From Leeuwenhoekiella polynyae (lineage in GTDB: Bacteria; Bacteroidota; Bacteroidia; Flavobacteriales; Flavobacteriaceae), in assembly GCF_004104075.1 (NCBI RefSeq), contig NZ_QOVK01000006.1, positions 62,001 to 126,000 on the forward strand: DNA of 64,000 bases, given 5' to 3'. The translations under genes were made by a program, and so were the position numbers. Shown piece by piece: positions 4,438 through 23,934 of this stretch. Each line of letters begins with the position of its first letter. The stretch's first letter is position 1. The notes under the pieces are model-generated. The model was not told the origin of the DNA. It saw only the letters and a program-made list of their open reading frames with translations, and did no database searches.

Positions 4438-4443
4438 AAACAC

Positions 4444-6396: not shown

Positions 6397-6426
6397 CTCG
6401 CACAAAACCCATTAATTGAATATTTT

Positions 6427-9400: not shown

Positions 9401-9714
9401 AACACCTGCCGGTTGTCGCGCAACTGGGGCCAACGATGTCGTTTGCATTTAGTGATATAAATAAAGACGGTCACCTGGATGTTGTGGGAATAGGCGCTAT
9501 TCACGAAGCTGAAGTAGAAACGGTTAAATACGATTCAAACGTGGGTTACGTATTGCTGGGAGATTCAAAAGGTGGGTTGAAGCCTTATAAAGACATCAGT
9601 TTTTATAATGACCTCAATGCAAAGCTTATGAAGCAGATGAATATTGGCAATGAAAGCTATTTAGTTATCGCCAATAATAACAGGCCTCTTACCATATTCA
9701 AAATCAAAGACTAA
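6427..9714 (+). CDS. CRTAC1-like FG-GAP/VCBS-repeat lipoprotein with ASPIC/UnbV domain
   Basis: This 1095-residue surface-type lipoprotein (lipobox LNSC, Cys20) carries two arrays of calcium-binding FG-GAP/VCBS blades with D-x-[DN]-x-D-G loops. Examples are DVNNDGLEDV, DYDKDGDLDM, DFNNDGWPDI, DFDGDGFKDI and DLDNDGDLDL, and later DADGDGDLDV, DYDQDGDLDL and DYDGDGDFDL. An ASPIC/UnbV module (VLNFGVGEEQQISKIEVVWN) sits between the arrays, around residues 550-590. Two seven-bladed beta-propellers are likely. Such proteins are frequent companions of SusC/SusD systems, but their role (glycan binding, adhesion or scaffold) is not settled. It starts 30 bp after the esterase and is very probably in the same operon. 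No catalytic motif was seen. Confidence 0.88.
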   Translation: MMRLTYFFVVVAFAGALNSCKDSGFQKKTSTAETLFTEISNEDSGIHFKNTVTETAAFNILNYYDMYNGGGVAIGDVNNDGLEDVYFTSNQNSNKLYLNKGDFKFDDITEAAGVADAEGWTTGVTMIDINADGWLDIYVCKSASLNNSLERRNKLFINQKDGTFTEEAAKWGLADDGFSIQAYFLDYDKDGDLDMYLINHRDDFLNSVDLNAIVNDEQFYPQTSDHLYRNDGNSFTDVTPGSGLINKEFSLSASIGDFNNDGWPDIFVANDFITPDKLYINNKNGTFANEVNTKMKHISYSSMGSDFADVNNDFLPDLLVLDMSAEDHQRGKQNMASMNTEGFWWIVEAGFHYPYMSNVLNLNNGNGYFTDIAQVSGVSKTDWSWAPLIADFDGDGFKDIFITNGIKREIANQDFGRFLDANEGSLEQMPIDSILKEMPSDKLQNYAFKNNKDLSFKKVIEDWGFTQAVNSNGVAYGDLDNDGDLDLVVNNLEDEAGIYRNNSTANYISIKLKGDAKNPLAIGSKVKVFTDSTKQYQELYLSRGYQSSVSPVLNFGVGEEQQISKIEVVWNTGKVSVLEKVQANQILSLSEAEATNSVETPYDRPEHFERIDPRELGLTYAHEENDFNDFSRQVLLPQKQSQQGPAFEVADVNNDGLEDVFLGGGPGQAAQLYIQQKDGKFEQIPQAAFESDKAYEDNGAHFFDADGDGDLDVYVASSGYELAENDSKLQDRLYLNDGKGSFSASSALPKMLTGSKAVVSLDYDQDGDLDLIVGGRIVPGKYPLSPRSYILENQSGKFVDVTKTVAPDFAEAGLINDLLLSDYDGDGDFDLLVAGEWMPITVFENQNGSFQPLEIEALKETSGWWNSIAEIDFDQDGDLDYFVGNLGANNKFHPSSEKPLHIYGNNFDSDGNYDMILSKVYKGSLVPVRGKECSTMQNSFVSEKIKTYKEFANSTLTDIYGSEQIANSYHKQATEFESVYLENLGNGDFRMKHLPVVAQLGPTMSFAFSDINKDGHLDVVGIGAIHEAEVETVKYDSNVGYVLLGDSKGGLKPYKDISFYNDLNAKLMKQMNIGNESYLVIANNNRPLTIFKIKD

Positions 9715-9833
9715 ACTTCTGTAAATAATTAGATTTCAACATAAATTCTTGCAGTTAGCTTTTAAATGTTTAAATTACATTTAAAACAAGTCGGTTTTTC
9801 GGCTTTCTAAAATTAACTTGAGACAGGTAACCC

Positions 9834-12287
9834 ATGAAATCTATTTTTTTAGGTGTTGTAAGCGCTTTTTTAATCTGTACGAGCTGTGCTCGCCAATCTT
9901 ATGAAACATCTAATTCTGGCGTAAAAACACAAATCGATTCTACACATGTGCGTATTGAATTTGTTTCTCCTTCTATAGTACGCATTCAAAAATATCGTGA
10001 GGGACATCCTTTTGAAAAAAAGAGCCTTTCCGTTATTAAAGAGCCAGAAGAGGTTTCTTTTGAAGTCAACGATATGAAGAACGGCTTTGCTTTGACCACG
10101 GCAGAATTACGTGTGGAGCTAGATACGCTAACCCAGGCGATACGTTTTTTTAAACCGGACGGAAGTCTTTTACTAAGCGAAAGCACAACTTCGTTTAAAC
10201 CTTTTGTAGATAATGGGAACGAAACATTTACCGTTAAACAAGGCTGGACTTTAGAAGCCGATGAGCCCATTTATGGTCTGGGGATTTTGCAAAATGGCAA
10301 AATGTCTCAACGCAATCAGGAAGTAAAAATGGTTCAAAATAATACCTGGGATTTTTCGACCTTTTTTCAATCTCCAAAAGGTTACGGCGTTTTTTGGGAT
10401 AATTACTCACCCACCACGTTTAAAGATGATACTGCTGAAACTTCTTTTTCTTCTCAGGTAGGTGATGGCATCGATTATTATGTGTTGGCGGGCGACAATG
10501 CTGATGCCGTTATTGCAGAAATGCGTGATCTTACAGGCGAAGTTCCTATGGTTCCGCTTTGGACCTATGGTTTTTGGCAAAGCCGGGAGCGCTATAAAAG
10601 TCAGGAAGAGACCGTAGGCGTGGTGCAAAAGCATCGCGAACTGGGAGTGCCACTGGACGGAATTATTCAGGATTGGCAATATTGGGGTGATAATTACCAT
10701 TGGAATGCGATGGATTTTGGAAATCCGGCATTTCCGGATCCTCAAAAATTTGTTGACGATGTTCACGGACTTAATGCGCATCTTATCATTTCAATTTGGT
10801 CTTCTTTTGGTCCTGAAACGCCTCAGTTTAAAGAACTGAAAGAAAAGAATATGTTGATGGACTTCCAGACCTGGCCACAATCAGGCAAAGAAGATTGGCC
10901 ACCCGATATGAATTATCCCTCAGGTGTGCAGGTTTACGATCCGTATAATCCGGAGGCACGTGATATTTACTGGGAATATTTAAGCAAGAATTTATTCTCT
11001 CTGGGTATTGATGGCTGGTGGATGGATTCTACCGAGCCTGATCATTTAGAGATTAAAGATGAAGACTATAACAATGAGACTTATCTGGGCTCTTTCCGCA
11101 AGGTGCGTAATGCGTTTCCGCTGGAGACGGTAGGAGGTGTTTATGATCATCAGCGCGAGGAAACATCAAATAAGCGGGTTTTTATTCTTACGCGTTCGGG
11201 CTTTGCTGGGCAGCAGCGTTATGGAGCCAACGTTTGGTCTGGTGATTTAGGTTCGTCCTGGCAGTCCTTACGCAACCAGATTCCTGCCGGTCTCAATTTT
11301 ACGCTTACCGGAAATCCTAATTTTAATACCGATATCGGTGGGTTTTTCGCGGGAGCTTATAACAAGTCGTGGAATGACGGCACAGCTTCTGTAAATCCAT
11401 TGTTTCAGGAATTATACGTGCGTTGGATGCAATACGGGGCGTTTACGCCAATGATGCGTTCACACGGTACTGAGATGAAACGCGAGATTTATCATTTTGG
11501 CGAAAAAGGCGAAGCCATTTACGATGCCATTCAGAATGCAATCGAACTCCGTTACAGTTTACTTCCCTATATCTACACGACTTCCTGGGAGGTTACTCAC
11601 AATCAGGATAGTTTTATGCGCGCTCTGGTAATGGATTTCCCGCAGGACAAAAAAACCTGGGATCTTAAGGACGAGTATATGTTTGGTGATGCAATTCTTG
11701 TGGCACCGGTATTGGAAGCCCAGTACACGCCTGAGAAAATTATAAAAGTAGATGAAGAAACCGGCTGGAATAAAGGCAAGGAGCGAGGAGCCGAAGGATA
11801 CCCCATAGTTGATTTTAAGGAGACCAAATCGGCAACGGTGTATTTACCCGAGGGAAGCGCATGGTATGATTACTGGACAAATGAGAAGTTTGACGGTGGG
11901 CAGGAAATCACAAAAGAAACAACTATAAATACGATTCCGCTGTATGTAAAAGCCGGAAGCATTTTACCCATAGGCCCTGAAGTGCAGTATGCCGAAGAAA
12001 AGCCCTGGAACAATCTGGAAATTCGTGTTTATGAAGGAGCTGACGGAAGTTTTAGCTTGTATGAAGATGAATTTGATAACTATAATTATGAAAATGGCGC
12101 CTATTCTACCATTTCATTCACGTGGAATGATGCGAACCAAACCCTGGAGATAGCAGATCGTAACGGAAACTTTGACGGGATGCTTCAGGAGCGCAGATTT
12201 ACTATTATAAAGATCAGTAAAGACGGTTCAGTTTCTGAGCCTAAAACCGTTGATTATTCCGGAGCTGCTGTTGAGGTAGAGTTTTAG
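9834..12287 (+). CDS. GH31 alpha-xylosidase-type glycoside hydrolase, lipoprotein
   Basis: This 817-residue GH31 enzyme has a lipoprotein signal (TSC, Cys18). Order of parts: N-terminal beta domain with the AIRFFKPDGSLLL region, (beta/alpha)8 barrel from about residue 240, and C-terminal beta domains with a DUF5110-like segment. Catalytic landmarks are DGWWMDSTEPD with nucleophile Asp398, WSGD with acid/base Asp471, and DWQYWG near residue 280. The STEPD form and bacterial lipoprotein layout match alpha-xylosidases such as xyloglucan-specific XylS relatives, though alpha-glucosidase cannot be excluded. It starts 119 bp after the FG-GAP gene and ends the cluster at a strong terminator. With GH3 and the esterase it forms a set suited to xyloglucan oligosaccharides. 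Confidence 0.92.
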   Translation: MKSIFLGVVSAFLICTSCARQSYETSNSGVKTQIDSTHVRIEFVSPSIVRIQKYREGHPFEKKSLSVIKEPEEVSFEVNDMKNGFALTTAELRVELDTLTQAIRFFKPDGSLLLSESTTSFKPFVDNGNETFTVKQGWTLEADEPIYGLGILQNGKMSQRNQEVKMVQNNTWDFSTFFQSPKGYGVFWDNYSPTTFKDDTAETSFSSQVGDGIDYYVLAGDNADAVIAEMRDLTGEVPMVPLWTYGFWQSRERYKSQEETVGVVQKHRELGVPLDGIIQDWQYWGDNYHWNAMDFGNPAFPDPQKFVDDVHGLNAHLIISIWSSFGPETPQFKELKEKNMLMDFQTWPQSGKEDWPPDMNYPSGVQVYDPYNPEARDIYWEYLSKNLFSLGIDGWWMDSTEPDHLEIKDEDYNNETYLGSFRKVRNAFPLETVGGVYDHQREETSNKRVFILTRSGFAGQQRYGANVWSGDLGSSWQSLRNQIPAGLNFTLTGNPNFNTDIGGFFAGAYNKSWNDGTASVNPLFQELYVRWMQYGAFTPMMRSHGTEMKREIYHFGEKGEAIYDAIQNAIELRYSLLPYIYTTSWEVTHNQDSFMRALVMDFPQDKKTWDLKDEYMFGDAILVAPVLEAQYTPEKIIKVDEETGWNKGKERGAEGYPIVDFKETKSATVYLPEGSAWYDYWTNEKFDGGQEITKETTINTIPLYVKAGSILPIGPEVQYAEEKPWNNLEIRVYEGADGSFSLYEDEFDNYNYENGAYSTISFTWNDANQTLEIADRNGNFDGMLQERRFTIIKISKDGSVSEPKTVDYSGAAVEVEF

Positions 12288-12309: not shown

Positions 12310-12346
12310 AAAAAGCCCTTTGAAAATTTTTCAAAGGGCTTTTTTA
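12310..12346 (+). terminator. Rho-independent terminator of the glycosidase operon
   Basis: A perfect inverted repeat (AGCCCTTTGAAAA / TTTTCAAAGGGCT) is preceded by A and followed by a T run, 25 bp after the GH31 stop codon. Confidence 0.92.
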
Positions 12347-12675: not shown

Positions 12676-14295
12676 TCAAAAATCAAAACGCTGAGGACCT
12701 CCTCTTCGAATATCTTCATTAGCGTAGGATTCAAATTTTTCAAAGTTTTTACGGAACGCATTTGACAGTTTAAATGCGGCCTTATAATATGCTGAATCAT
12801 CATCCCAGGTTTTACGGGGACTCAATACCGAATCAGGGACACTTGGACAGGTTCTCGGTTGAGCAACTCCAAAAACCGAATGAATGTGATAGTTTTCATA
12901 TTTATATTCATGATCAATGCTTCCATCAAGAATAGCATTGATCATGGCTCTTGTATATTTTAGTTTTATACGGGTACCTACACCGTAAGCACCACCGGTC
13001 CATCCGGTATTGATCAACCATACCTGGGCACCACTGCGCTTGATTTTCTCATTTAACATTTCGGCATACTTTGTGGGGTGTAAAGGCATAAAAGGGGCTC
13101 CAAAACAAGCTGAGAATGAGGGTAGGGGTTCTACAATACCTGCTTCAGTACCGCCAAGTTTTGATGTGTATCCTGAAATAAAATGATAAGCAGCTTGACT
13201 TGCTGTCAATTTTGAAACCGGAGGTAATACGCCAAAGGCATCTGCAGTCAGGAAAAAGATATTTTTGGGGGTGCTTGCTACAGAGGGGATCTGTATATTG
13301 TCAATATGGTTAATGGGATAACTTACCCGGGTATTTTGAGTAATCGAGGCATCTTCAAAATCGACTACTCCATTTTCATCCATAATTACATTTTCTAAAA
13401 TAGCACCTTTCTTAATCGCCCCATAAATCTCAGGTTCCTGCTCTTCAGAAAGATTGATCACTTTAGCATAGCAACCGCCTTCAAAATTAAAAACACTATT
13501 TTCTGAAGTCCACCCGTGCTCATCATCACCTATTAATTTACGATTTGAGTCAGTAGAAAGCGTTGTTTTACCGGTGCCAGAAAGACCAAAAAAGATTGCG
13601 GTATCGCCATCTTTACCCACATTAGCAGAACAATGCATAGGCAATGCATCCCTATAAACGGGTAAAATAAAATTTAATGCCGAAAAAATACCTTTTTTGA
13701 TTTCGCCCGTATATCCGGTTCCTCCTATTAATGCAATTTTCTTTGTGAAATTTAATATCGCAAAATTGTGTTGTCTGGTGCCATCTACTACCGGATCAGC
13801 CATAAAACCCGGAGCATTGATAACCGTCCACTCCGGGTCAAAATCTTCTAGCTCATCTTCAGTAGGTCTTAAAAACATATTATAGGCAAACATGTTAGAC
13901 CAAGGGTATTCATTGACTACCCTTATGTTCAACCGATACTCTTTTTCTGCACATGCATAGGCATCACGAACATAAAGCTCCTTATCATTCAGGTACTCAA
14001 TTACCTTATCATAAAGCGCATCAAAAGCATCACTTTCAAAAGGAATATTGATGTTACCCCACCATACTCTATTTGCAGTAATATCGTCTTTTACGATAAA
14101 ACGATCCATAGGCGATCTACCGGTGAACTCTCCGGTATTTACGGCAAGAGCTCCCAGGGAGGATTCTTTGCCCATACCCTTGTCAAGGGTGATTTCTTGC
14201 AATTGCTCAGGACTTAACTGATACTGTATATTTTGGTGTGTAATTCCGTATTCTACTAAAGATAATGATTTGTTTGATTTGACATGATCTGTCAT
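12676..14295 (-). CDS. pckA: Phosphoenolpyruvate carboxykinase (ATP)
   Basis: This 539-residue cytoplasmic enzyme converts oxaloacetate and ATP to phosphoenolpyruvate, CO2 and ADP, the entry step of gluconeogenesis. Visible motifs are the kinase-1a P-loop GLSGTGKTTLS (residues 237-247), the metal-binding IGDDEHGW just after it, NFEGGCYAK, and TGRSPMDRF near the N-terminus. The P-loop identifies the ATP-dependent family. Length is normal. It stands alone, with a terminator behind it and a LacI-like palindrome about 40 bp upstream. Its position beside a C4-acid operon (14578-18910) fits use of dicarboxylates for sugar synthesis. The regulatory link is inference. Confidence 0.97.
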   Translation of the reverse strand: MTDHVKSNKSLSLVEYGITHQNIQYQLSPEQLQEITLDKGMGKESSLGALAVNTGEFTGRSPMDRFIVKDDITANRVWWGNINIPFESDAFDALYDKVIEYLNDKELYVRDAYACAEKEYRLNIRVVNEYPWSNMFAYNMFLRPTEDELEDFDPEWTVINAPGFMADPVVDGTRQHNFAILNFTKKIALIGGTGYTGEIKKGIFSALNFILPVYRDALPMHCSANVGKDGDTAIFFGLSGTGKTTLSTDSNRKLIGDDEHGWTSENSVFNFEGGCYAKVINLSEEQEPEIYGAIKKGAILENVIMDENGVVDFEDASITQNTRVSYPINHIDNIQIPSVASTPKNIFFLTADAFGVLPPVSKLTASQAAYHFISGYTSKLGGTEAGIVEPLPSFSACFGAPFMPLHPTKYAEMLNEKIKRSGAQVWLINTGWTGGAYGVGTRIKLKYTRAMINAILDGSIDHEYKYENYHIHSVFGVAQPRTCPSVPDSVLSPRKTWDDDSAYYKAAFKLSNAFRKNFEKFESYANEDIRRGGPQRFDF

Positions 14296-14331
14296 AAGAA
14301 GTGTTTTTAGTTATTTAGGTAAAGTTGATAA

Positions 14332-14346
14332 GCGAAAACGTTTGCT
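14332..14346. promoter_or_regulatory. LacI/CcpA-like palindrome upstream of pckA
   Basis: GCGAAAACGTTTGCT contains the perfect 8-bp palindrome AAACGTTT (14336-14343) with a central CpG, the typical core of LacI-family operators. It sits about 40 bp upstream of the pckA start. It differs from the boxes at 1784 and 2101, so a different LacI-type regulator would be expected. The remainder of 14296-14577 shows no gene. Confidence 0.4.
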
Positions 14347-14577
14347 AAACCCAATATTCTTTTTTTGATCTCTTTATTATAAGATGCAGTTTTTGGTAAA
14401 TACCCCTATTCATTTTGGAATAAATCTCTAAGTAAGGCTTTTGGAAACTTATCCTGCCAGACTGATTTTGACTATCTCTACATACCAAATAAATAGTATC
14501 AATTCATTTCTATTACAGCACAAAATTCGGCTCATGTAAAGGAGTTTTTATGCAAAGAATCTATTCATCAACCAGTA

Positions 14578-15636
14578 TTATTTAGTTTTTATATTTTGAA
14601 TTAACGCATCTGTTACCTGTACAGTTGAAGCATTTCCGCCTAAATCTGGCGTTAAAACCTTACCCTTAGCAGTTAGTTTCTCTATCGCATCTTCTATTAA
14701 TGCAGCAGCTTCATGTTCGCCAAAATGCGACAACATCATCGCCGCAGTCCAAACAGAAGCGATAGGATTTGCAACATTCTTACCGGCAATATCTGGTGCG
14801 CTGCCGTGTACGGGTTCAAACATGCTCGGAAACTCTTTCTCCGGGTTTAAATTGGCCCCAGGGGCAATTCCCATACCACCTATCACAGCCGGCCCTAAAT
14901 CTGAAAGGATATCACCAAAAAGATTGCTTGCTACCACGACATCAAATTCGTGAGGTCTTGTTACAAAATGCGCGGTCAGTATATCTATGTGAAACTGAGA
15001 TTGTATTACGCCTGGATACAATTCACCAATAGCCTTGAATCGCTCGTCCCAATAGGGCATGGTGTGAATGATGCCATTAGATTTGGTAGCACTCGTCAAC
15101 TTCTTATTTCTTTTGTTTGCTAATTCGTAAGCATACTTCATTACCCGGTCAACCCCTCGCTTTGTAAATATGCTCTCCTGCACGACTAACTCGTGTTCAG
15201 TACCTTCATTCAACCTTCCTCCAATTGAAGAATATTCTCCCTCGTTATTTTCCCGAACAATGTAGAAATATATGTTTCCGGGATTCTTCAAGGGTGAGTC
15301 AACTCCCTTAAGCAGTTTTACAGGTCTGAGATTTACATATTGCTGAAACGTTCTTCGAATAGGAACAAGTAAGCCCCAAAGGGAAACATGATCAGGAACT
15401 CCAGGATAACCAACAGCCCCCAAAAAGATACCGTCGCTATCTCTCAGTTTTTTTAGACCGTCATCATCCATCATTTTTCCGTGGTTTTTATAGTATTCAC
15501 ACGAATAGTCATAGTGTTTATACGAAATTTCAAAACCACACTGAGCCGCTACGGTATTGAGAAGCCGTATCGATTCAGGAACAACCTCATTTCCTATTCC
15601 ATCTCCCGGTATTACTGCTACTTCATACTTTTTCAT
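14578..15636 (-). CDS. D-malate / tartrate dehydrogenase-type beta-decarboxylating dehydrogenase
   Basis: This 352-residue protein belongs to the isocitrate/isopropylmalate dehydrogenase superfamily: GDGIG at residues 11-15, a substrate-binding segment with RRTFQQYVNLRP, RENNEGEYS, a catalytic lysine in TSATKSNGI, and metal-binding aspartates in NLFGDILSDLGP. The LLVPIRRTFQQYVNLRPVKL and REN-EGEYS patterns match the DmlA/TtuC group (D-malate or tartrate to pyruvate or a related product, with NAD+) better than LeuB. It starts 1 bp after the alpha/beta hydrolase gene and is last in the operon. Its likely job is to oxidise and decarboxylate the hydroxy-acid made by that hydrolase or imported by the DASS carrier. 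Exact substrate is unknown. Confidence 0.88.
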   Translation of the reverse strand: MKKYEVAVIPGDGIGNEVVPESIRLLNTVAAQCGFEISYKHYDYSCEYYKNHGKMMDDDGLKKLRDSDGIFLGAVGYPGVPDHVSLWGLLVPIRRTFQQYVNLRPVKLLKGVDSPLKNPGNIYFYIVRENNEGEYSSIGGRLNEGTEHELVVQESIFTKRGVDRVMKYAYELANKRNKKLTSATKSNGIIHTMPYWDERFKAIGELYPGVIQSQFHIDILTAHFVTRPHEFDVVVASNLFGDILSDLGPAVIGGMGIAPGANLNPEKEFPSMFEPVHGSAPDIAGKNVANPIASVWTAAMMLSHFGEHEAAALIEDAIEKLTAKGKVLTPDLGGNASTVQVTDALIQNIKTK

Positions 15637-15637
15637 G

Positions 15638-16531
15638 CTAATTTTTCGGTTTTAAAGGTTTAAAAAAATCAATCAAAGCTTTCGTTGTTTCAGTGGGGGC
15701 TTCTTCCGGCAAATAATGTCCGCAGGGCAACCCAAATCCAACTACATCATCCGACCATTTTTTCCATTCTTCAATAACATTATATTTTCGGCCAACGAAA
15801 GCTTTTTCGCCCCAAATACAGAGAACAGGACATGCTAATTTTTTGCCAGCATTGATGTCTAATTGATCTAACTCAAGGTCTATTGTTGCAGAAGCTCGAT
15901 AATCTTCACAACTAGAATGTATGGTTTCAGGAGTAAAACAGCGTAAATATTCTTGTCTTGCTTCTTTTGTTATGGCATTTTTATCCCTGCCCCATTGACC
16001 GAATTTTTTGTTCAAGAAGTACTCAGGGTCTTCTCCTATCATTTTTTCCGGAATGTCATTTGGTTGAATAAAAAAAAACCAATGGTAGTATGCAGTTGCA
16101 AATTCCATATCGGCTGTTTTGTACATCGTATAGGTCGGTGCAATGTCCAAAACCGCCAATTTCAATATGATTTTAGGATAATCTAACGCCATACGGTGGC
16201 CAACTCTACCGCCACGGTCATGACCGGCCAAATAGAATTGGTCAAACCCAAGAGATTGCATCAATAAAATTTGATCCATACCCATTTCACGTTTTGAATA
16301 GGGGAAATGTTCAGTATCGGTCGGTGGATTACCACTATCCCCGTAACCTCTTAAATCTGATGCGACAACCGTAAAGCATTTTGCGAGTTGGTCCGCTATT
16401 TTATGCCAGATATAATTCGTCTGCGGATAGCCATGTAATAAAAGTAGGGGAGGACCGCTACCTCCAATAACATAGTTTATTTTAACGCCGTTAACCTGTT
16501 TGATATGATTTTTAAATGCTTTGAAAATCAT
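15638..16531 (-). CDS. Alpha/beta hydrolase of the fluoroacetate dehalogenase type
   Basis: This 297-residue protein has the haloalkanoate/epoxide-hydrolase-type fold with an aspartate nucleophile. Nucleophile elbow AGHDRGGR gives Asp105 with Arg106 and Arg109; third-acid candidate is Asp129; the base is His272 (GHYLPEEAP). His150-Trp151 and Tyr211 (EDYRASATID) occupy the places that in characterised fluoroacetate dehalogenase (RPA1163; from memory Asp110, Arg111, Arg114, Asp134, His155-Trp156, Tyr219, His280) bind substrate carboxylate and halide. Spacings agree within 0-3 residues. It overlaps the DASS gene by 4 bp and is followed 1 bp later by the malate/tartrate-type dehydrogenase. No signal peptide, so cytoplasmic. 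An epoxy-acid hydrolase is the main alternative. Confidence 0.85.
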   Translation of the reverse strand: MIFKAFKNHIKQVNGVKINYVIGGSGPPLLLLHGYPQTNYIWHKIADQLAKCFTVVASDLRGYGDSGNPPTDTEHFPYSKREMGMDQILLMQSLGFDQFYLAGHDRGGRVGHRMALDYPKIILKLAVLDIAPTYTMYKTADMEFATAYYHWFFFIQPNDIPEKMIGEDPEYFLNKKFGQWGRDKNAITKEARQEYLRCFTPETIHSSCEDYRASATIDLELDQLDINAGKKLACPVLCIWGEKAFVGRKYNVIEEWKKWSDDVVGFGLPCGHYLPEEAPTETTKALIDFFKPLKPKN

Positions 16532-18003
16532 AATTTTTGTTTCAAATGCTTAGGAAAACTATCTATTGCGATGTCCCATAATTCCGGAAGCAGAAAATAG
16601 ACAAATAGTGTGAGTAGAACTATAGAAATTATGTTCATTAAAAAACCTTTATTCACCATATCCGGTATTCGAAGATAACCCGATCCGAATACTACCGCAT
16701 TAGGCGGTGTGGCAACGGGCAACATAAATGCACAGGAAGCTGCAACAGCTGCACCTACCATTAGAACAAAAGGATGTACATCTATATTTAAAGCCATAGG
16801 TGCCAAAACGGGTAACAACATTGCCGTAGTGGCCAGGTTTGAAGTAATCTCGGTCAAAAAATTAACAGCCGCTATTAAGATGAGCAACAGCAAAAATAGA
16901 TGAAGCCCGGATAAACTGCCCATTTGAGAGCCTATCCATATAGCTAAACCACTGGTTTCAAAACCTTGTGCGAGAGCCATTCCACCTCCAAAAAGTAATA
17001 TGATTCCCCAAGGCATTTTTACAGCTTCATCCCAGTTAATCAAAGTTCGCGTCCTTTTCTTATTGGGTATAAGAAATAATAATATGGAAAAAAACACCGC
17101 TATTATTGTATCATCAAGAGCAGGAAAAATTGCTTGTAACAGATAAGATCGTGTAATCCAGCAAAAAGCAGTCAGTCCAAAAACCATGGCGACCATCTTT
17201 TCTTCGTAACTGATCTTTCCTAAATTATTTAATAAGCGTTTAATTTCTGTTTTGCCTCCAGGAAACTTCTTTTGCTTAAATGTAAATGCATATCGGGTAA
17301 GATAGACCCAACAAATAAATAGTAATATTAGGGAAATAGGCAAACCAAACATAAACCATTGCATAAACGTAATTTCATACCCGTAGGTATCTGAGATTAC
17401 TCCAGCCAGCACCAAATTGGGAGGAGTACCTATGAGTGTCGCAACACCACCAATTGATGCACTGTAAGCGATGGCGAGCATAAGAGCCTTGCCAAAGGTC
17501 TGGTTCTCATCTTCAACAGTATCGGGGTTATCCTGCAATTGCTTTATGATAGCAACCCCTATAGGCAACATCATAACCGATGTGGCTGTGTTTGAAATCC
17601 ACATAGACAAAAATGCGGTTGCACACATAAACCCTAGAATGATCATACGAACGTTAGAACCTATGATGTTAATGATGTTCAGTGCAATGCGCTTATGGAG
17701 GTCCCATTTTTCAATAGCGATGGCAATTATAAAACCACCCATATACAGGAATATATATTTGTGCCCAAAAGAAGCTGCTGTGGTTTCCAAATCCAAACCG
17801 CCAGACAGCGGAAACAGGACAAGAGGTAACAAAGCTGTTATTGAAATAGGTAAGGCCTCGGTTATCCACCAAATGGCGACCCATGCAGTACCTGCCAAAA
17901 TTGCGACACCCTCCTTAGAGAGCCCTTCAGGATGGATGAATAAGTAAATTAGAAAAAAGGTGAGTGGACCAAGAATAAGGCCAATTATTTTCTTTGTATT
18001 CAT
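16528..18003 (-). CDS. DASS (SLC13) family sodium/dicarboxylate symporter
   Basis: This 491-residue inner-membrane carrier has about 11-12 hydrophobic segments. The two diagnostic motifs of the divalent anion:sodium symporter family are present: SNTATSVMMLP (SNT at 137-139) and EITSNLATT (388-390), each preceding a membrane helix, with a conserved PP in GTPPN and a matching TPPNA in the second half. Members carry succinate, malate, fumarate or tartrate with sodium. The start lies 1 bp from the end of the AEC permease gene and the end overlaps the dehalogenase-like gene by 4 bp (ATGA). That makes a translationally coupled operon. Confidence 0.93.
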   Translation of the reverse strand: MNTKKIIGLILGPLTFFLIYLFIHPEGLSKEGVAILAGTAWVAIWWITEALPISITALLPLVLFPLSGGLDLETTAASFGHKYIFLYMGGFIIAIAIEKWDLHKRIALNIINIIGSNVRMIILGFMCATAFLSMWISNTATSVMMLPIGVAIIKQLQDNPDTVEDENQTFGKALMLAIAYSASIGGVATLIGTPPNLVLAGVISDTYGYEITFMQWFMFGLPISLILLFICWVYLTRYAFTFKQKKFPGGKTEIKRLLNNLGKISYEEKMVAMVFGLTAFCWITRSYLLQAIFPALDDTIIAVFFSILLFLIPNKKRTRTLINWDEAVKMPWGIILLFGGGMALAQGFETSGLAIWIGSQMGSLSGLHLFLLLLILIAAVNFLTEITSNLATTAMLLPVLAPMALNIDVHPFVLMVGAAVAASCAFMLPVATPPNAVVFGSGYLRIPDMVNKGFLMNIISIVLLTLFVYFLLPELWDIAIDSFPKHLKQKL

Positions 18004-18004
18004 A

Positions 18005-18910
18005 TCAATAGATTATAAAATAAATTAGAATTACGGTCAAAATAGATACAGGTATACCCAGTCCCGGCATTAAAAAAGATAAATCTGGTTTTAGACCAAG
18101 TTCTGCAGCTACAATTGCAATGGTATTCATAGGTCCAAGACCAGCACCAAGTACACATACCTTTGCAACTAGCGTATTATGTTCTCCCAAAAAAAAGAAA
18201 AGTAAAAATACTAGAAGTGGAGCTATTATAAGTTTATAAGATTGTCCCAAGAGAAAATAGTTTTTATTCCGTTTTACAGATTTCATACTTACGTTAAGCC
18301 CAATGGTAAACAAAGCCAAAAATGAAAAGGGTTTTGCTAGTATGGCAAGTGTTTCATTCATAAAATCAGGAAATTTTGTATTGGTAAATAACAGTATAAA
18401 TGCCAGCACCATTGCTAAAAAGGGTGGAAATATAACAATATCTTTTATGAGCTTCACAGCACTTGTTTGTTTTTGGGCGTACCAAAAACCGGTAAAAACC
18501 CCTATGGTATTGCAAACCACAAAAGTACCTGCGAGGGAAAGAATAATACCTAATGCAAGACCTTTTGGACCTAAAAACATCTCAAAAATGGGAAAACCTG
18601 CAAATGAAATGCTTCCGATTCCCGAGGTCATTATGAGTACAGCTCTTGCTTTTCTTTCAATTGGTCTAATCAAATTAACCAGTTCAAAAAAAAGAAAGGA
18701 AAAACCATAAATGATCCACGGTGATACTATTAACCAGATGTGTTTTTCAGAAAATTCAATCTCCGGGAGATAGCGTAAGGTTAGTATAGGTATAAAAAAA
18801 TGAATAAGCAGTTTGTTGAGTTTGCCACCTAAGCCTTTGGGCGTTACGCTGTATTTTTTACAGAGTATGCCTATTAGTAAAAAAGCAAAAAGGACTATTG
18901 TTTTTTCCAT
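18005..18910 (-). CDS. AEC (auxin efflux carrier) family permease
   Basis: This predicted inner-membrane transporter has about ten hydrophobic helices, with the family-typical N-terminus MEKTIVLFAFLLIGILCKK and a late GLGPMNTIAIVAAELG segment. I chose the ATG at 18908-18910 (301 residues). The frame extends to 18955, but the 15 extra residues come from a stable hairpin (18921-18944) and are not signal-like. Bacterial AEC members include malonate and malate permeases, which suits an organic-acid operon. It follows the TonB receptor after the hairpin and is tightly joined to the DASS gene. Why the operon carries two carriers is unclear: import and product export, or mono- and dicarboxylate specificity, are options. 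Confidence 0.85.
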   Translation of the reverse strand: MEKTIVLFAFLLIGILCKKYSVTPKGLGGKLNKLLIHFFIPILTLRYLPEIEFSEKHIWLIVSPWIIYGFSFLFFELVNLIRPIERKARAVLIMTSGIGSISFAGFPIFEMFLGPKGLALGIILSLAGTFVVCNTIGVFTGFWYAQKQTSAVKLIKDIVIFPPFLAMVLAFILLFTNTKFPDFMNETLAILAKPFSFLALFTIGLNVSMKSVKRNKNYFLLGQSYKLIIAPLLVFLLFFFLGEHNTLVAKVCVLGAGLGPMNTIAIVAAELGLKPDLSFLMPGLGIPVSILTVILIYFIIY

Positions 18911-18944
18911 AATTTTAAAGAAGTGGCCCCCGTAGGAGCCACTT
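18911..18944 (-). terminator. UNCG-tetraloop hairpin between TonB receptor and permease genes (attenuator or partial terminator)
   Basis: On the minus strand AAGTGGCTCC and GGGGCCACTT pair over 10 bp (one G-U) around a C(TACG)G loop, the exceptionally stable UNCG class, followed by CTTTAAAATT. It lies about 40 bp after the receptor stop and directly before the AEC start. It probably reduces transcription into the transporter/enzyme genes or protects the receptor mRNA 3' end. The U tract is short, so full termination is doubtful. Confidence 0.65.
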
Positions 18945-18983
18945 TCTACAAACAATCTAACTCAAACAACGCAATTAGAATTT

Positions 18984-21900
18984 TTAAAAGTTAATGTTAA
19001 AACTTGTATAATAGTATGCTCCATTAAATCCAAATTGATTTGAATTTCTAGAATAGGGAATCTGACCACTTGAATAGTTAGAGGCCTGCCCTATAGCACC
19101 ATCTCTTGTATTGTTCCACTTATCTGGATACGTATCAAAAATATTGTTGCTACCTATAGACCATGTGAAGTTATCACTGAATCTAAAGGAGATTGATAAA
19201 TCGACTAGTGCTTTATCACTAAATACCTGTACCAGTCTATCTCCCGAATCACTTTCAATTACGTTAGGATCTTCCAAGGACAAACCACCACTTGCCGCTT
19301 GAACTTCTCCAAAGTGTGTCATACGACCTATAAAGCCAAATCTGCCCGTATTGTAATTAAGGCTGGCCAAAAGCTTGTATCGTGGCTGTGCTACTTCTAT
19401 TAATTGAGTTGCAATCTCACCTAGTAGTTTAAAATCCGGATCACCGCCAGCGGTAAGCTCAGCAGGCGCAGCTTGTTGACTTACCACCTCTGTTTGGTTT
19501 AAGGTCAAAGCTAAACTCCCTGAGAAATTACTTTTCTCTGAAAATCGCTCTTTGTAAGCTGCTACAATATCTACACCGGTTGTTTTGGTACTAATCGCAT
19601 TTGTGAAAAAGCGAATTTCACTCGCTTCTGGAAAGAGCGCTGCAACTGCCGGAAAATCACCTGTATCCAATCTTTCGGTAATAACAATTCGATCATTAAT
19701 ATCTATACGGAAAGCATCTGCGGTAAACAGTAACTTACCTCCAAGTAATTTAGCAGTAACACCTATATTATAGTTATTTGAAATTTCGGCCTCTGGATCC
19801 TTAACACCTAATTGCGCCAATCTTGGATCGTCACTCGATACCTGCTTAGTAATTACAATGACATCATTTTGTACCGTTGAAGTATTCACCCGGTTACCTA
19901 TTTGTGCTACAGATGGCGCTCTAAAACCTCTGTTGTAAGAACCTCGTAAGGCAATGTTTTCAGTAAGCTTGTAGCGACCTGCCAATTTACCGGATAAGTT
20001 ACCTCCAAAGTCACTGTAATTTTCATAGCGAACTGCTGCTCCTAATAAAAATCTGTCAGAAAAATCTTTTTCGACGTCTACATACATAGCAAAATTGCTT
20101 CTTGACAAATCATTTTCGTCAATATCAGCGATACCTGGTCTTGCACTGGATCCTATTGCCTTGCCTTCTGTAGCTAATGATCCAACTTCAAAGGATTCTG
20201 GTGAACCTTGCTTTAATAAAAATCTATCGGTACGATATTGTGTTCCAAAGGCTAAGTTAAAGGTTTCGCTAAGCGCTTTAGACATGTTGAACTCTCCTAT
20301 GGTTTGTCTAAAGTCATACCTTCCTACTTTAAATTCAGTAGGGGAGGCTGAACCTAAAGAAGGATTTACCGTATTATTAGCAAAAAGATCCAGATAGTTT
20401 CTACCGTAACTAAGACTTAAGTCATAGTTCCAACCTTCTCGTGTAATTCTATCCACACCTACCACAGTTGAAACATCTACAGAAGAACCGGGAAGTTCTG
20501 GTACAAAACCATCAGGAAAAATACCTAAAGCCGAATTTCCAAAATTGGAAGGTGCTCTAAAAAAACCATAGGCTAAAATATCTTTTCTGGATACACCTCC
20601 AAAACTGTATAATTTCCAGTCTTTTGTACCGATTGGCAACCCTGCGTTGTAAAATGCTTGATAGGTATCATTTTCATTTGAACCATAATTACCTACAACT
20701 ACATCTCCCTGTGGATAAAACCCTCTATCTTCTCTTGGATTAGCCGTATCATAAGGGAAGTTAGGAGTAGGACCCGTTTGATCGTAGTCATCTGGTGTCT
20801 CAGGATATATTCTTCCTGTATAAGAATCAGACCTGTTAGTTCCAGAAAAGGTAAACATTTCTAAGGTTGTGTTAAAATAACTCCCCTCTTTACCTAAACC
20901 AAAACCATAATTAATACTGTGCTTAAAGGTAACACCATCGCCTTCTTTATGAATACCTGCTGTACCAATGTAAGTACCCTCACCTACCGATTTATTTAAG
21001 TTTAAATTGATTATACCGGATATCGCATCTGAACCATACTGTGCGGCTCCACCATCACGTAATACTTCAATTCTGCTAAGTGCACCAGATGGGATGGAGT
21101 TGATATCAGTAACAATGGTACCTAAACCTGGAGAAACATTTAAATTCAAGGTTGAAAATTGATGTCTTCTTTTACCATTGATCAATACTAGCGATTGGTC
21201 TGGCGACATTCCTTTTAAGGTAGCTGGTTCAGCATAGTTGGTAGTTCCGTTCACACCATATTTTGCAGAGTTGAACGATGGGGAGGAAAATTGAATTTGC
21301 TGACCTAAATCTGTCTGTCCTGTTAAAGCCAATTCTTTTGCCTCTACCACGTCAACCGGTACTGGTCTATTTACATCTGTTCTGGGTTTACCTCTTGATC
21401 CTACAAGAACCACATCGTCAAGTTGCGCGGCAGCGGCTTCTAATTGCACTTCAATAGTATCTTTATCGGTAATGTCTATTTCAGTAGTTTTAAAGCCTAC
21501 ATAGGATATGACCAGAATATTCATATCCGCGGGCACCTCAATTGTAAAATTTCCATCAAAATCTGTCGTAGCCCCTATAGTTGTTCCTTTTACTAGGATA
21601 TTTGCTCCAGGCAATGGGTATCCTCCATCGTCTTTGACTACGCCCTCTATAACAGACTGCATGGAAACAAGAGTGGGACTGGACTGTTCTTTTTTGGTCA
21701 GGACAATTTGTTTCCCATTTATCACAAAATTGAAACCTGCTATATCAGAAAGATTTTCAAGCACTTTTTCAACAGTTTCTTTCTTAGCAGAAAAAGAAAT
21801 TTTTCTAACTACATCGATTTCGTTCACGTTATAAAAAAAACTGTAATCAGATTGTGATTCAATCTCATCCAATACTTTTTTTAATTGTACCTCTTTAACA

Positions 21901-22052
21901 TCAAAATCAATTTTCACTTGTGACAAAACCGTATTTGCAGGTAATTGAAATAAAGCAAAAAACGCTAAGACTAAACTTATTTTCATTTTAAAGTTCATTT
22001 TTTTTCCAGGTTCCTCTTTGAGAAAAACAAGGTTTCTTCCATGATTTTTCAT
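18984..22052 (-). CDS. TonB-dependent outer-membrane receptor with N-terminal STN signalling domain
   Basis: This 1022-residue receptor starts with a signal peptide (to about residue 45). It then has a secretin/TonB N-terminal (STN) domain at about 60-120 (VKEVQLKKVLDEIESQ, YSFFYNVNEI), a carboxypeptidase-regulatory-like domain at 135-210 (PGANILVKGTTIGATTDFDG), a plug (PVDVVEAKEL, IEVLRDGGAAQYGSDAISG) and a long beta-barrel ending in an aromatic residue (SFNINF). STN domains talk to FecR-type anti-sigma proteins, and a fecR gene lies directly upstream. No SusD partner follows. Instead come two organic-acid carriers and two catabolic enzymes. The substrate is therefore probably not a glycan, though this is inferred from context only. 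Confidence 0.94.
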   Translation of the reverse strand: MKNHGRNLVFLKEEPGKKMNFKMKISLVLAFFALFQLPANTVLSQVKIDFDVKEVQLKKVLDEIESQSDYSFFYNVNEIDVVRKISFSAKKETVEKVLENLSDIAGFNFVINGKQIVLTKKEQSSPTLVSMQSVIEGVVKDDGGYPLPGANILVKGTTIGATTDFDGNFTIEVPADMNILVISYVGFKTTEIDITDKDTIEVQLEAAAAQLDDVVLVGSRGKPRTDVNRPVPVDVVEAKELALTGQTDLGQQIQFSSPSFNSAKYGVNGTTNYAEPATLKGMSPDQSLVLINGKRRHQFSTLNLNVSPGLGTIVTDINSIPSGALSRIEVLRDGGAAQYGSDAISGIINLNLNKSVGEGTYIGTAGIHKEGDGVTFKHSINYGFGLGKEGSYFNTTLEMFTFSGTNRSDSYTGRIYPETPDDYDQTGPTPNFPYDTANPREDRGFYPQGDVVVGNYGSNENDTYQAFYNAGLPIGTKDWKLYSFGGVSRKDILAYGFFRAPSNFGNSALGIFPDGFVPELPGSSVDVSTVVGVDRITREGWNYDLSLSYGRNYLDLFANNTVNPSLGSASPTEFKVGRYDFRQTIGEFNMSKALSETFNLAFGTQYRTDRFLLKQGSPESFEVGSLATEGKAIGSSARPGIADIDENDLSRSNFAMYVDVEKDFSDRFLLGAAVRYENYSDFGGNLSGKLAGRYKLTENIALRGSYNRGFRAPSVAQIGNRVNTSTVQNDVIVITKQVSSDDPRLAQLGVKDPEAEISNNYNIGVTAKLLGGKLLFTADAFRIDINDRIVITERLDTGDFPAVAALFPEASEIRFFTNAISTKTTGVDIVAAYKERFSEKSNFSGSLALTLNQTEVVSQQAAPAELTAGGDPDFKLLGEIATQLIEVAQPRYKLLASLNYNTGRFGFIGRMTHFGEVQAASGGLSLEDPNVIESDSGDRLVQVFSDKALVDLSISFRFSDNFTWSIGSNNIFDTYPDKWNNTRDGAIGQASNYSSGQIPYSRNSNQFGFNGAYYYTSFNINF

Positions 22053-22135
22053 AATTTTAGGTGTGTTTAGATTGTTAGAATTATTACTGATGATCTATTA
22101 TTAAAAGGGGGTGTTCGCAGCACTTCCTTTTTCTT

Positions 22136-23299
22136 TTAATTAGATATTGTTATAACGTTATTATTTTTTTCATAGTTAAACGGTGTGCTTAATTCAATGG
22201 TTTTTAAGATTGTTTCCAAGTCTTCGTTATTAAATTCTCCTTTAAAAATTTCATTATCTAGGTTTTTAGCCTTGTTTATAAATTTCACATCGTACATGCG
22301 CTCCAATTTTATCAGGATTTCTGAAAACTTTAGATTATTTATAATCAATTTGCCCTGCATCCACGCGGTGTAGATATCTGTATCTACCACGGCTTTATCA
22401 AGCTTACCATCCTTTTTATTATAAGAAGCCTGATAACTGGGGGTTAATCTCAACTCTTCTTCCGGAGTACTGTTTCTGTAAACACTTACGGCTCCTTCTA
22501 CCAAAGTTGCAGTTACAGACTCATTAGTATCATAAGATGATACATTGAATTTGGTACCTAAAACTTTTACATCTATATCTTTAGCATTAACTATGAAAGG
22601 TTTTTTTGCGTTTTTGGTTACTTCAAAGAAACCTTCGCCCTCGAGAAATACTTTTCGCTCCGCTAATGAACTCACAAATCGCTGCGGAAAACGCAACTTA
22701 GAACCAGAATTTAAATGCACTGTTGTACCATCTGACAAAATGATCTTAAACTTTTCTCCGAAGGGAATGTATATTTCGTTATAGACTAATTTTTCTGAAC
22801 TTGAAGATTCGTTTGCTAAGAATGACAGGGAATTATGATCATTTTTAGCAACGATGTTCCCTTCTTTATCTTTAATCTGGTTATCATTTTTAGTGCTAAT
22901 TACTTTCTGGGTACCATCAGCAAGTGTTATAATAATTTCATCTTTAGGATCAAGAGTATTTTCATGAAGTGTCACATTTTCATTTACAAGTTTTTCGCTG
23001 GTATACTCTTTTACTTGATAACCTATAGTAAATAACAGCGCAAAAACAGCAGCGTACTTAAGCAATCGATAAGTTAACTTAGGAGTCTGCTTTTTAGCTT
23101 TTGTAGCACTTATAAATTTTTGATAGGCCTTTTCTGCATTAAAATCAATCGAGCTATCTGGATTGTATTTTTGTATCTTCTTTTTAAAAACCTCTAAATG
23201 ATCAGGATCCTCAAGAACCCATTTTTTTAATTCAAGCTTTTCCTTACTGGAAATAGTCCCTTTTAATAATTTATTGATAAGTATTATTTCTGATTTCAT
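22136..23299 (-). CDS. FecR-family anti-sigma factor
   Basis: This is an inner-membrane anti-sigma regulator of about 387 residues. The N-terminal cytoplasmic part (LINKLLKGTISSKEKLELKKW) is followed by one transmembrane helix near LLKYAAVFALLFTIGYQV, then a periplasmic FecR domain with FGEKFKIILSDGTTVHLNSGS and VFLEGEGFFEVTK, and a C-terminal domain that would contact the STN domain. I took the ATG at 23297-23299 (MKSEI) because the upstream extension to 23335 has unlikely composition. It lies 83 bp before the STN receptor on the same strand and diverges from the ECF sigma gene. It should hold the sigma factor inactive until the receptor binds its ligand. Confidence 0.92.
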   Translation of the reverse strand: MKSEIILINKLLKGTISSKEKLELKKWVLEDPDHLEVFKKKIQKYNPDSSIDFNAEKAYQKFISATKAKKQTPKLTYRLLKYAAVFALLFTIGYQVKEYTSEKLVNENVTLHENTLDPKDEIIITLADGTQKVISTKNDNQIKDKEGNIVAKNDHNSLSFLANESSSSEKLVYNEIYIPFGEKFKIILSDGTTVHLNSGSKLRFPQRFVSSLAERKVFLEGEGFFEVTKNAKKPFIVNAKDIDVKVLGTKFNVSSYDTNESVTATLVEGAVSVYRNSTPEEELRLTPSYQASYNKKDGKLDKAVVDTDIYTAWMQGKLIINNLKFSEILIKLERMYDVKFINKAKNLDNEIFKGEFNNEDLETILKTIELSTPFNYEKNNNVITISN

Positions 23300-23397
23300 T
23301 ATTGATATAGTCAGTTTGTCAACTCTATGATACAATTTTGATAAAAAACCCCTATCTATTTTTAATTTTTATTAATTTAGAATTTCTGATATACTAA

Positions 23398-23934
23398 ATG
23401 GACGATAAAAAATTATTAAAAAAGTTACGGAAAGGAGATACCGCTGCGTATAAATATTTGTTTTCAACATATTATACCTGGTTGTGTAATTATGTCTTAA
23501 AACTTTGTAACGATCCCAGTCTGGCAGAGGATATAGTGCAAGATACGATGATTAATTTTTGGGAGAAACGAGACACAATTTTAATAACAACTTCCTTAAA
23601 GAGCTACTTATTCCGTTCTTGTCACAATCAATTCTTACAACATATAAGAAAACAAAAAATAAAGTTTGATTTTCTGGATAATATACGATGGGAAGTTATC
23701 GCAAGTGCTCAAAAAGAAGATACCAGTGCCAGAGATCGTGATTTAGAGAAATTAAATAATCTTATAGATAAGCTACCACCACGGTGTAAAGAAATTTTTA
23801 TTAAAAATAAAATTCAGAAAAAAAAGTATAGAGAAATTGCTGTTGATATGGGGATTTCAATAAAGACTGTAGAGAATCAAATGTCTAAAGCCCTTCACTT
23901 TTTAAAGGAGAATGCCAATTCATTTCTAATCTAA
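23398..23934 (+). CDS. ECF-type RNA polymerase sigma factor (FecI-like, Bacteroidota type)
   Basis: This 178-residue sigma-70 family protein has region 2 at about residues 15-80 (YKYLFSTYYTWLCNYVLKL, AEDIVQDTMINFWEKR) and region 4 at about 120-175 (LPPRCKEIFIKNKIQKKKYR, IAVDMGISIKTVENQMSKAL). It is the sigma partner of the FecR protein but is transcribed divergently, with only about 100 bp between starts. It most likely drives the receptor operon on the minus strand. No sequence after its stop suggests a co-transcribed gene; a decayed region follows. Confidence 0.93.
   Translation: MDDKKLLKKLRKGDTAAYKYLFSTYYTWLCNYVLKLCNDPSLAEDIVQDTMINFWEKRDTILITTSLKSYLFRSCHNQFLQHIRKQKIKFDFLDNIRWEVIASAQKEDTSARDRDLEKLNNLIDKLPPRCKEIFIKNKIQKKKYREIAVDMGISIKTVENQMSKALHFLKENANSFLI

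Follow-up and report, generated by a model that had tools for sequence, protein, structure and literature searches.

A receptor-linked gene island in Leeuwenhoekiella polynyae that may take up and break down a four-carbon diacid, tentatively epoxysuccinate

Within a 64,000-nucleotide stretch of the flavobacterium Leeuwenhoekiella polynyae (contig NZ_QOVK01000006.1, positions 62,001 to 126,000; hereafter the window), an island of eight genes brings together a TonB-dependent receptor with FecI/FecR-type signalling genes, a dicarboxylate symporter, an alpha/beta hydrolase of the fluoroacetate dehalogenase family (HYD) and a tartrate/D-malate-type dehydrogenase (TDH). Judging from which genes are present and conserved, from catalytic residues and from the recurrent linkage of HYD with TDH, we think that this island probably imports an unusual four-carbon acid under the control of its receptor, that HYD opens the acid and that TDH takes the product. 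The version we favour, with a probability of about 45%, is an inducible C4-diacid island in which epoxysuccinate would be converted to tartrate and then to glycerate. The eight genes are the following:

12676..14295, minus strand: PEPCK2, a second ATP-type phosphoenolpyruvate (PEP) carboxykinase and the eighth gene of the island (TIGR00224, 707.1 bits; cut-off 590.05)
14578..15636, minus strand: TDH, tartrate/D-malate dehydrogenase (TIGR02089 and NF006048 above cut-off; 58.5% to 3flk)
15638..16531, minus strand: HYD, fluoroacetate-dehalogenase-family alpha/beta hydrolase (57.3% to NOS0089, 3qyj; catalytic residues)
16528..18003, minus strand: DASS/SLC13-type dicarboxylate symporter (TIGR00785 above cut-off)
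18005..18910, minus strand: AEC-like permease, a weak family assignment (TIGR00946, E 1e-9, below cut-off; open reading frame from TTG 18955)
18984..22052, minus strand: TonB-dependent receptor with STN domain, not SusC (Pfam domains; TIGR04056 below cut-off)
22136..23299, minus strand: FecR-type anti-sigma factor with FecR_C (Pfam FecR and FecR_C; open reading frame from TTG 23335)
23398..23934, plus strand: ECF sigma-70 factor, divergent from FecR (TIGR02985, 150.8 bits; cut-off 126.4)

All seven open reading frames that an initial annotation had placed at 14578-23934 are present there, and since the same seven genes stand together in two further Leeuwenhoekiella genomes (80-97% protein identity), their arrangement is, on this comparison, not a matter of chance. 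The inner genes are packed as closely as that annotation had described, with 1 bp between the AEC-like gene and DASS, a 4-bp overlap of DASS and HYD, and 1 bp between HYD and TDH. The receptor gene lies on the same strand and the AEC-like gene follows it after 73 bp. ATG 18910 is a likelier start of the AEC-like gene than TTG 18955, as is ATG 23299 of FecR than TTG 23335; from the former of these FecR starts, 98 bp lead to the divergent sigma gene. PEPCK2, which the annotation had missed, is an extra copy in the genome and is separated from TDH by 282 bp. A pattern scan found no terminator-like site in this gap, its nine sites in total being at chance level (8.5 expected); they include a 16-pair two-way hairpin at 12310-12344, beyond PEPCK2. 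The chance-level scan also placed a terminator-like hairpin at 22103-22131 between FecR and the receptor, on the plus strand and so opposite to transcription. We take 12676-23934 to be one accessory island, in which a transcript shared with PEPCK2 is only putative.

The block from PEPCK2 through TDH, HYD, DASS, the AEC-like gene and the receptor to FecR and the sigma factor is maintained in L. polynyae and in two congeners, G144 and G257. HYD (E 1e-50), the receptor and PEPCK2 are confined to these same three of the 13 Leeuwenhoekiella genomes, the receptor at no less than 94% (two others have only a relative at 36-37%) and PEPCK2 at 93-100%; another PEP carboxykinase, 67-71% identical to PEPCK2, is present in all 13. 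Neither the GH31 gene nor what lies right of the sigma factor was found in the G257 stretches examined (L019 and L090, about 2 kb rightward), and the FG-GAP gene on the left side has a 64% relative there.

The receptor combines an STN domain (residues 70-121; 33.4 bits, cut-off 28.4) with CarboxypepD_reg_2, plug and barrel domains, and the anti-sigma gene matches Pfam FecR (59.2 bits) and FecR_C (61.7 bits) above cut-off. A SusC/SusCD polysaccharide utilisation locus was considered and ruled out, as the receptor reaches 129 bits against a TIGR04056 cut-off of 368. Its sequence matches in the PDB are weak and comprise siderophore and colicin receptors, SusC/RagA-type proteins and one plain TonB-receptor entry. 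The surface-signal set described in the initial annotation is complete, with sigma factor, FecR and STN receptor adjacent, although the sigma gene lies on the opposite, plus strand. The proposed link between this signalling and catabolism is real in gene anatomy but narrow in distribution, the receptor and FecI/FecR part having been met in three of the 13 genomes of Leeuwenhoekiella, the genus within which the receptor was searched; induction of the island by a ligand is predicted from the gene families. Among the carriers, DASS clearly passes its model (TIGR00785, 312.5 bits; cut-off 198.6), and its closest solved chains are SLC13A2, sodium/dicarboxylate cotransporter 3 and the sodium/citrate cotransporter. 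The earlier AEC call does not hold up as well: TIGR00946 gives 38 bits where its cut-off is 246, there is no Pfam family at 1e-3, and the protein is a distant relative at best.

By sequence and structure, HYD belongs to the fluoroacetate dehalogenase family. Its closest solved chain, 3qyj (Alr0039/NOS0089; 57.3% identity), is also the best PDB match of its AlphaFold model (pLDDT 88.2; TM 0.94). All residues checked are retained (D110, R111, R114, D134, H155, W156, W185, Y219 and H280 in RPA1163 numbering), which are presumably the functional residues of RPA1163, several being named in PDB titles; they comprise an Asp-His-Asp triad, the arginines R111 and R114, and the halide pocket H155, W156 and Y219. 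An Asp nucleophile in an alpha/beta hydrolase fold serves dehalogenase or epoxide hydrolase chemistry, and from the pocket of HYD alone we cannot tell a halide from an epoxide substrate. The paralogue of HYD in the same genome (L069; 33% identity) has lost R111 and R114 and was set aside as lying outside this system.

TDH passes both of its models (TIGR02089, 537.7 bits, cut-off 470.4; NF006048, 527.7 bits, cut-off 501) and is 58.5% identical, over the aligned stretch, to the Pseudomonas putida enzyme 3flk. The coupling of an Asp-nucleophile hydrolase, a tartrate/D-malate-type dehydrogenase and a dicarboxylate carrier, as put forward in the initial annotation, is borne out by these family models and by the recurrence of the HYD-TDH pair. 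In a 249-genome sample of the family, HYD (E at most 1e-90) and TDH (at least 76% identity) occur in the same three genomes, L. polynyae, G144 and G197; elsewhere in this sample, G052 has a HYD remnant only, G227 a 33% relative, and twenty more genomes only a TDH-like protein at 45-50%. A draw of 397 genomes added one HYD, in G663, with TDH adjoining, and the pair is thereby found in two more Flavobacteriaceae genera (G197 and G663). In a 395-genome sample of the phylum, neither HYD at 1e-70 nor TDH at 1e-120 turned up outside L. polynyae. HYD, TDH and DASS lie together in G197; in G663, TDH sits at a contig end and no DASS was seen beside the pair. The pair also occurs in Jannaschia W003 (HYD then TDH, gapless), in Ruegeria conchae and in Embleya (both TDH then HYD). 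The synteny comparison suggested by the initial annotation thus returned the pair in G197, G663, Jannaschia, Ruegeria and Embleya with no receptor or FecI/FecR genes alongside, and synteny lacking the hydrolase and dehydrogenase was not seen.

Of the 978 plasmid records matching a joined HYD-TDH query, 3 carry the two genes together; the single control query, HYD joined to an aldehyde dehydrogenase, matched 3468 records and gave no such case. Among eight plasmid TDH loci (L105-L112), only that of Jannaschia carries HYD, and that of Leisingera has a HAD-type dehalogenase. In a tree of 40 HYD rows, from which Embleya was left out, TDH-linked enzymes fall into three starred clades, namely Flavobacteriaceae, Jannaschia with Pacificitalea, and Ruegeria within a mostly LeuCD-linked clade, each of which also has rows without linked TDH; the program counted three label changes, two of them forced by starred branches. 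Repeated assembly of HYD with TDH is the likely history suggested by these sequences, the alternative being one gain with losses. Two loci are worth recording here. In G052 (L017, 10118-10333), HYD is cut to an 86-amino-acid remnant, perhaps by recent loss, and DASS is intact; G663, of the same genus label (g53), has an intact pair. The Leisingera plasmid (L107, 3173-7059) carries, downstream of a C4 TRAP carrier, a single run of genes for a HAD type II dehalogenase, an Lrp regulator, a succinate-semialdehyde dehydrogenase and TDH, and may be a parallel solution built on an unrelated fold.

Neighbouring genes bear on the nature of the product. Directly upstream of the pair in Jannaschia lies a gene that matches (E about 1e-172) the PDB entries 2dw7, 1tzz and 2dw6 (Bll6730), entries which we take to be the D-tartrate dehydratase of Bradyrhizobium japonicum; in Acuticoccus and Indioceanicola, too, this homologue lies beside TDH. 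Such a B. japonicum enzyme is mentioned in an excerpt of PMC10079672. Indioceanicola was rejected as a further case of HYD, the gap between TDH and the dehydratase homologue holding a reverse-strand LysR-like frame instead on six-frame reading. In G197, a glycerate kinase (TIGR00045, 384 bits; cut-off 168) stands past a divergent TetR gene next to the HYD-TDH-DASS run, much as in the Ttu tartrate operons of Agrobacterium vitis, for which sections of PMC2063504 give glycerate as an intermediate of tartrate use and a glycerate kinase nearby. One PF02595 glycerate kinase is encoded in L. polynyae, with a GntP-like permease as its neighbour. Among 16 plasmid HYD loci, hand-picked from match lists (one with 201 records at 1e-50), homologues of HYD stand beside LeuC/LeuD-type (aconitase-type) dehydratases in six and beside a fumarylacetoacetate-hydrolase-family gene in two. 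Of 675 plasmid records matching a joined HYD and LeuC query, 78 contain both genes, and the 40 rows listed are all from Klebsiella.

The six loci in which LeuC-LeuD-like genes adjoin a HYD-family hydrolase are L072 (a Klebsiella plasmid, 2986-6843), L073, L076, L079, L083 and L084. Trp takes the place of the His of the halide pocket in L072, L073, L079 and L083, which makes haloacetate dehalogenase annotations of these proteins doubtful. Together, the tartrate dehydratase homologue, the glycerate kinase and the aconitase-type dehydratases found near the pair or its homologues point to tartrate as the product and hence to an epoxide as the substrate. We infer that the product would be a C4 diacid bearing hydroxyl groups, with tartrate a better fit than malate, and that epoxysuccinate is accordingly a better candidate substrate than halosuccinate.

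In the favoured route, a ligand at the STN-domain receptor would act, by way of FecR, on the divergently encoded ECF sigma factor and so switch the island on, as its gene families suggest. DASS, perhaps together with the AEC-like permease, would move the acid over the inner membrane, a role again read from family membership. HYD would then open it through a covalent ester intermediate, most likely turning epoxysuccinate into tartrate (trans-epoxysuccinate into meso-tartrate). Enzymes of the TDH family convert tartrate to D-glycerate and CO2, and D-malate to pyruvate; TDH would carry out the former reaction here, or the latter if the substrate were halosuccinate. Glycerate could enter glycolysis through the genome's one glycerate kinase found, and PEPCK2 could act in gluconeogenesis from C4 acids that share the carrier. 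The substrate, the inducer and the direction of regulation are the parts of this route that we infer. Natural sources of (2S,3S)-trans-epoxysuccinate do exist: according to parts of PMC12568646, fungal enzymes make it, as does a single enzyme from a cyanobacterium. A wider proposal, that some "fluoroacetate dehalogenase" enzymes are natural epoxysuccinate hydrolases of a third fold that supply tartrate pathways and that the receptor senses an epoxysuccinate-bearing natural product via FecI/FecR, strikes us as unlikely; it would make this the first catabolic island in Bacteroidota to be surface-signalled for an organic acid instead of iron or glycan.

Several observations weigh against epoxysuccinate. 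TDH models are not known to separate tartrate from D-malate enzymes, and the halide pocket of HYD is intact. TDH was not found beside HYD at any of 19 genome-contig loci (L021-L039; flanks of up to 10 kb, some shorter), of which L023 has a 27%-identical TDH relative about 9 kb from the HYD homologue, nor at 15 of the 16 plasmid loci, Ruegeria being the sole exception. Even there the pocket His of HYD is Trp, and with this residue also lost in four of the six LeuCD-linked relatives, the same pair need not mean the same substrate. PEPCK2 fits a pyruvate/oxaloacetate route, or dicarboxylates brought by DASS, and is unneeded for glycerate. The product that would suit a D-tartrate dehydratase is that of the cis isomer, not of the trans isomer named above, so either isomer of epoxysuccinate may be the substrate. 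In G663 (L088, 9924-11967), a histidine-decarboxylase-like gene of the pyridoxal-phosphate type (NF002748, 470 bits; cut-off 305) lies 46 bp before HYD, a misfit with the favoured route. The cloned epoxysuccinate hydrolases described in the available portions of the papers have other folds than HYD (HAD and TIM barrel), and the closest assayed relative of HYD removes fluoride: NOS0089 is listed as active on fluoroacetate and difluoroacetate in an excerpt of a review (PMC11022551).

Part of this evidence would suit a halosuccinate route, in which HYD would invert (S)-2-halosuccinate to D-malate, TDH would yield pyruvate and PEPCK2 would draw on the pyruvate/oxaloacetate pool for gluconeogenesis. 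The intact pocket, the membership of PEPCK2 in the island and the HAD type II dehalogenase run with TDH in Leisingera are in its favour, D-malate is a classical substrate of the TDH/DmlA family, and RPA1163 reportedly inverts (S) to (R). However, we know of no natural supply of halosuccinate, epoxysuccinate hydrolases are likewise close to HAD-II enzymes, and the enolase- and aconitase-type dehydratases and glycerate kinase nearby fit a dihydroxy-diacid better. The conversion of 2-halosuccinate via malate to pyruvate, which the initial annotation had offered as its example, is thus not the one we favour, the neighbours pointing to tartrate even though PEPCK2 points the other way; we hold it doubtful, if worth keeping in view. 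A general C4-dicarboxylate operon for succinate, malate, fumarate and tartrate, with HYD clearing toxic halo- or epoxy-analogues that share the carrier, would explain the SLC13 dicarboxylate/citrate carriers nearest to DASS, the presence of PEPCK2 and the retention of DASS in G052 next to a HYD remnant. On the other hand, the pair stands with no adjacent DASS in G663 (where the contig ends), Jannaschia, Ruegeria and Embleya, suggesting a committed step, and we regard such an operon as improbable.

Use or detoxification of fluoroacetate or other haloacetates is suggested by the 57% identity of HYD to an assayed fluoroacetate/difluoroacetate dehalogenase, but we consider it very unlikely, given that no fluoride-handling genes are linked. 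Glycolate does not belong to the substrates of TDH-type enzymes, the genome's one CrcB found sits on another contig (C2), and comparison of the window with Rfam gave nothing, fluoride riboswitches included, that reached the gathering score. Fluoride exporter and thioesterase families are absent among the eight island genes (12676-23934), whereas a genuine fluoroacetate cluster, in the passages of PMC11812338 that describe it, has the fluoride exporter CrcB, a fluoroacetyl-CoA thioesterase and an aconitate methyltransferase. A last alternative concerns control and leaves the substrate aside: the receptor and FecI/FecR could form an independent iron- or siderophore-type unit lying by chance beside a catabolic operon. 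In the stretches examined of G197 and G663, the pair is present and these genes are not, and the PDB matches of the receptor, all weak, are siderophore and colicin receptors once the SusC/RagA-type entries and the plain TonB-receptor entry are set aside. Yet the AEC-like gene follows the receptor on the same strand after only 73 bp, the whole block is kept in three of three genomes while the flanks differ in one, and within the genus the receptor occurs only where the pair does, so that we find a chance neighbourhood distinctly unlikely.

Several known systems resemble parts of the proposed epoxysuccinate island. HYD shares fold, Asp-His-Asp triad, two carboxylate-binding arginines and halide pocket with NOS0089/Alr0039 (3QYJ), RPA1163 and DAR3835, and differs from these dehalogenases in its operon partners, which are TDH and dicarboxylate carriers, and in the lack of linked fluoride-resistance genes. 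TDH resembles the P. putida tartrate dehydrogenase/decarboxylase (3FLK) in identity and in passing tartrate dehydrogenase models; unlike P. putida TDH, E. coli DmlA and A. vitis Ttu, it is apparently supplied by an Asp-nucleophile hydrolase and placed under FecI/FecR control. The ECF sigma factor, FecR and STN receptor recall FecI/FecR/FecA signalling, from which the island departs in its divergent sigma gene, its downstream cargo of carbon catabolism and its lack of SusC/SusD. The proposed reaction to meso-tartrate is that of trans-epoxysuccinate hydrolase (EC 3.3.2.4), reportedly known from Pseudomonas through 1969 biochemistry on P. putida; neither "trans-epoxysuccinate hydrolase" nor "tartrate epoxidase" occurred in the papers searched.

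The cis-epoxysuccinate hydrolases CESH[L] and CESH[D] catalyse the type of reaction proposed here, from epoxysuccinate to tartrate, and CESH[L] uses a two-step Asp chemistry like that proposed for HYD, but they belong to other superfamilies (HAD-like and TIM barrel, respectively) than this alpha/beta hydrolase. HYD was ruled out as a known-type CESH on fold, though the same reaction by a different enzyme type could hold. As far as the consulted parts of the sources go, CESH[L] was guessed in 2019 to be an alpha/beta hydrolase about 30% identical to L-2-haloacid dehalogenases, with CESH[D] a TIM barrel (PMC6429283), and is HAD-like by a 2024 structure and more than 60% identical to those dehalogenases (PMC10869282). 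In a literature search with most subscription papers outside its coverage, no paper paired "fluoroacetate dehalogenase" or "epoxysuccinate" with "tartrate dehydrogenase", and none combined FecR signalling with dicarboxylate.

If the epoxysuccinate reading is right, it would give a natural role to part of an enzyme family studied for its cleavage of C-F bonds and provide a candidate gene family for an old activity, the conversion of epoxysuccinate to tartrate. It would also mean that FecI/FecR surface signalling, known for iron and glycans, reaches small organic acids as well. "Haloacetate dehalogenase" labels near tartrate genes, or near LeuCD on Klebsiella and Pantoea plasmids, may then misstate the substrate. 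The recurrence of the enzyme pair in unrelated bacteria makes the pathway testable.

Two further loci complete the picture. A Saprospiraceae hydrolase 70% identical to HYD (L021, 128-2968) lies beside an enolase-superfamily gene with an apparent N-terminal export signal; no TDH was seen in this 10-kb contig, and the neighbour was not counted as a tartrate dehydratase, its best PDB matches being other enolase-superfamily entries. In the window itself, the adjoining region at 2170-12287 holds GH3, sialate-acetylesterase-like, FG-GAP/UnbV and GH31 genes, in part a glycan-type cluster.

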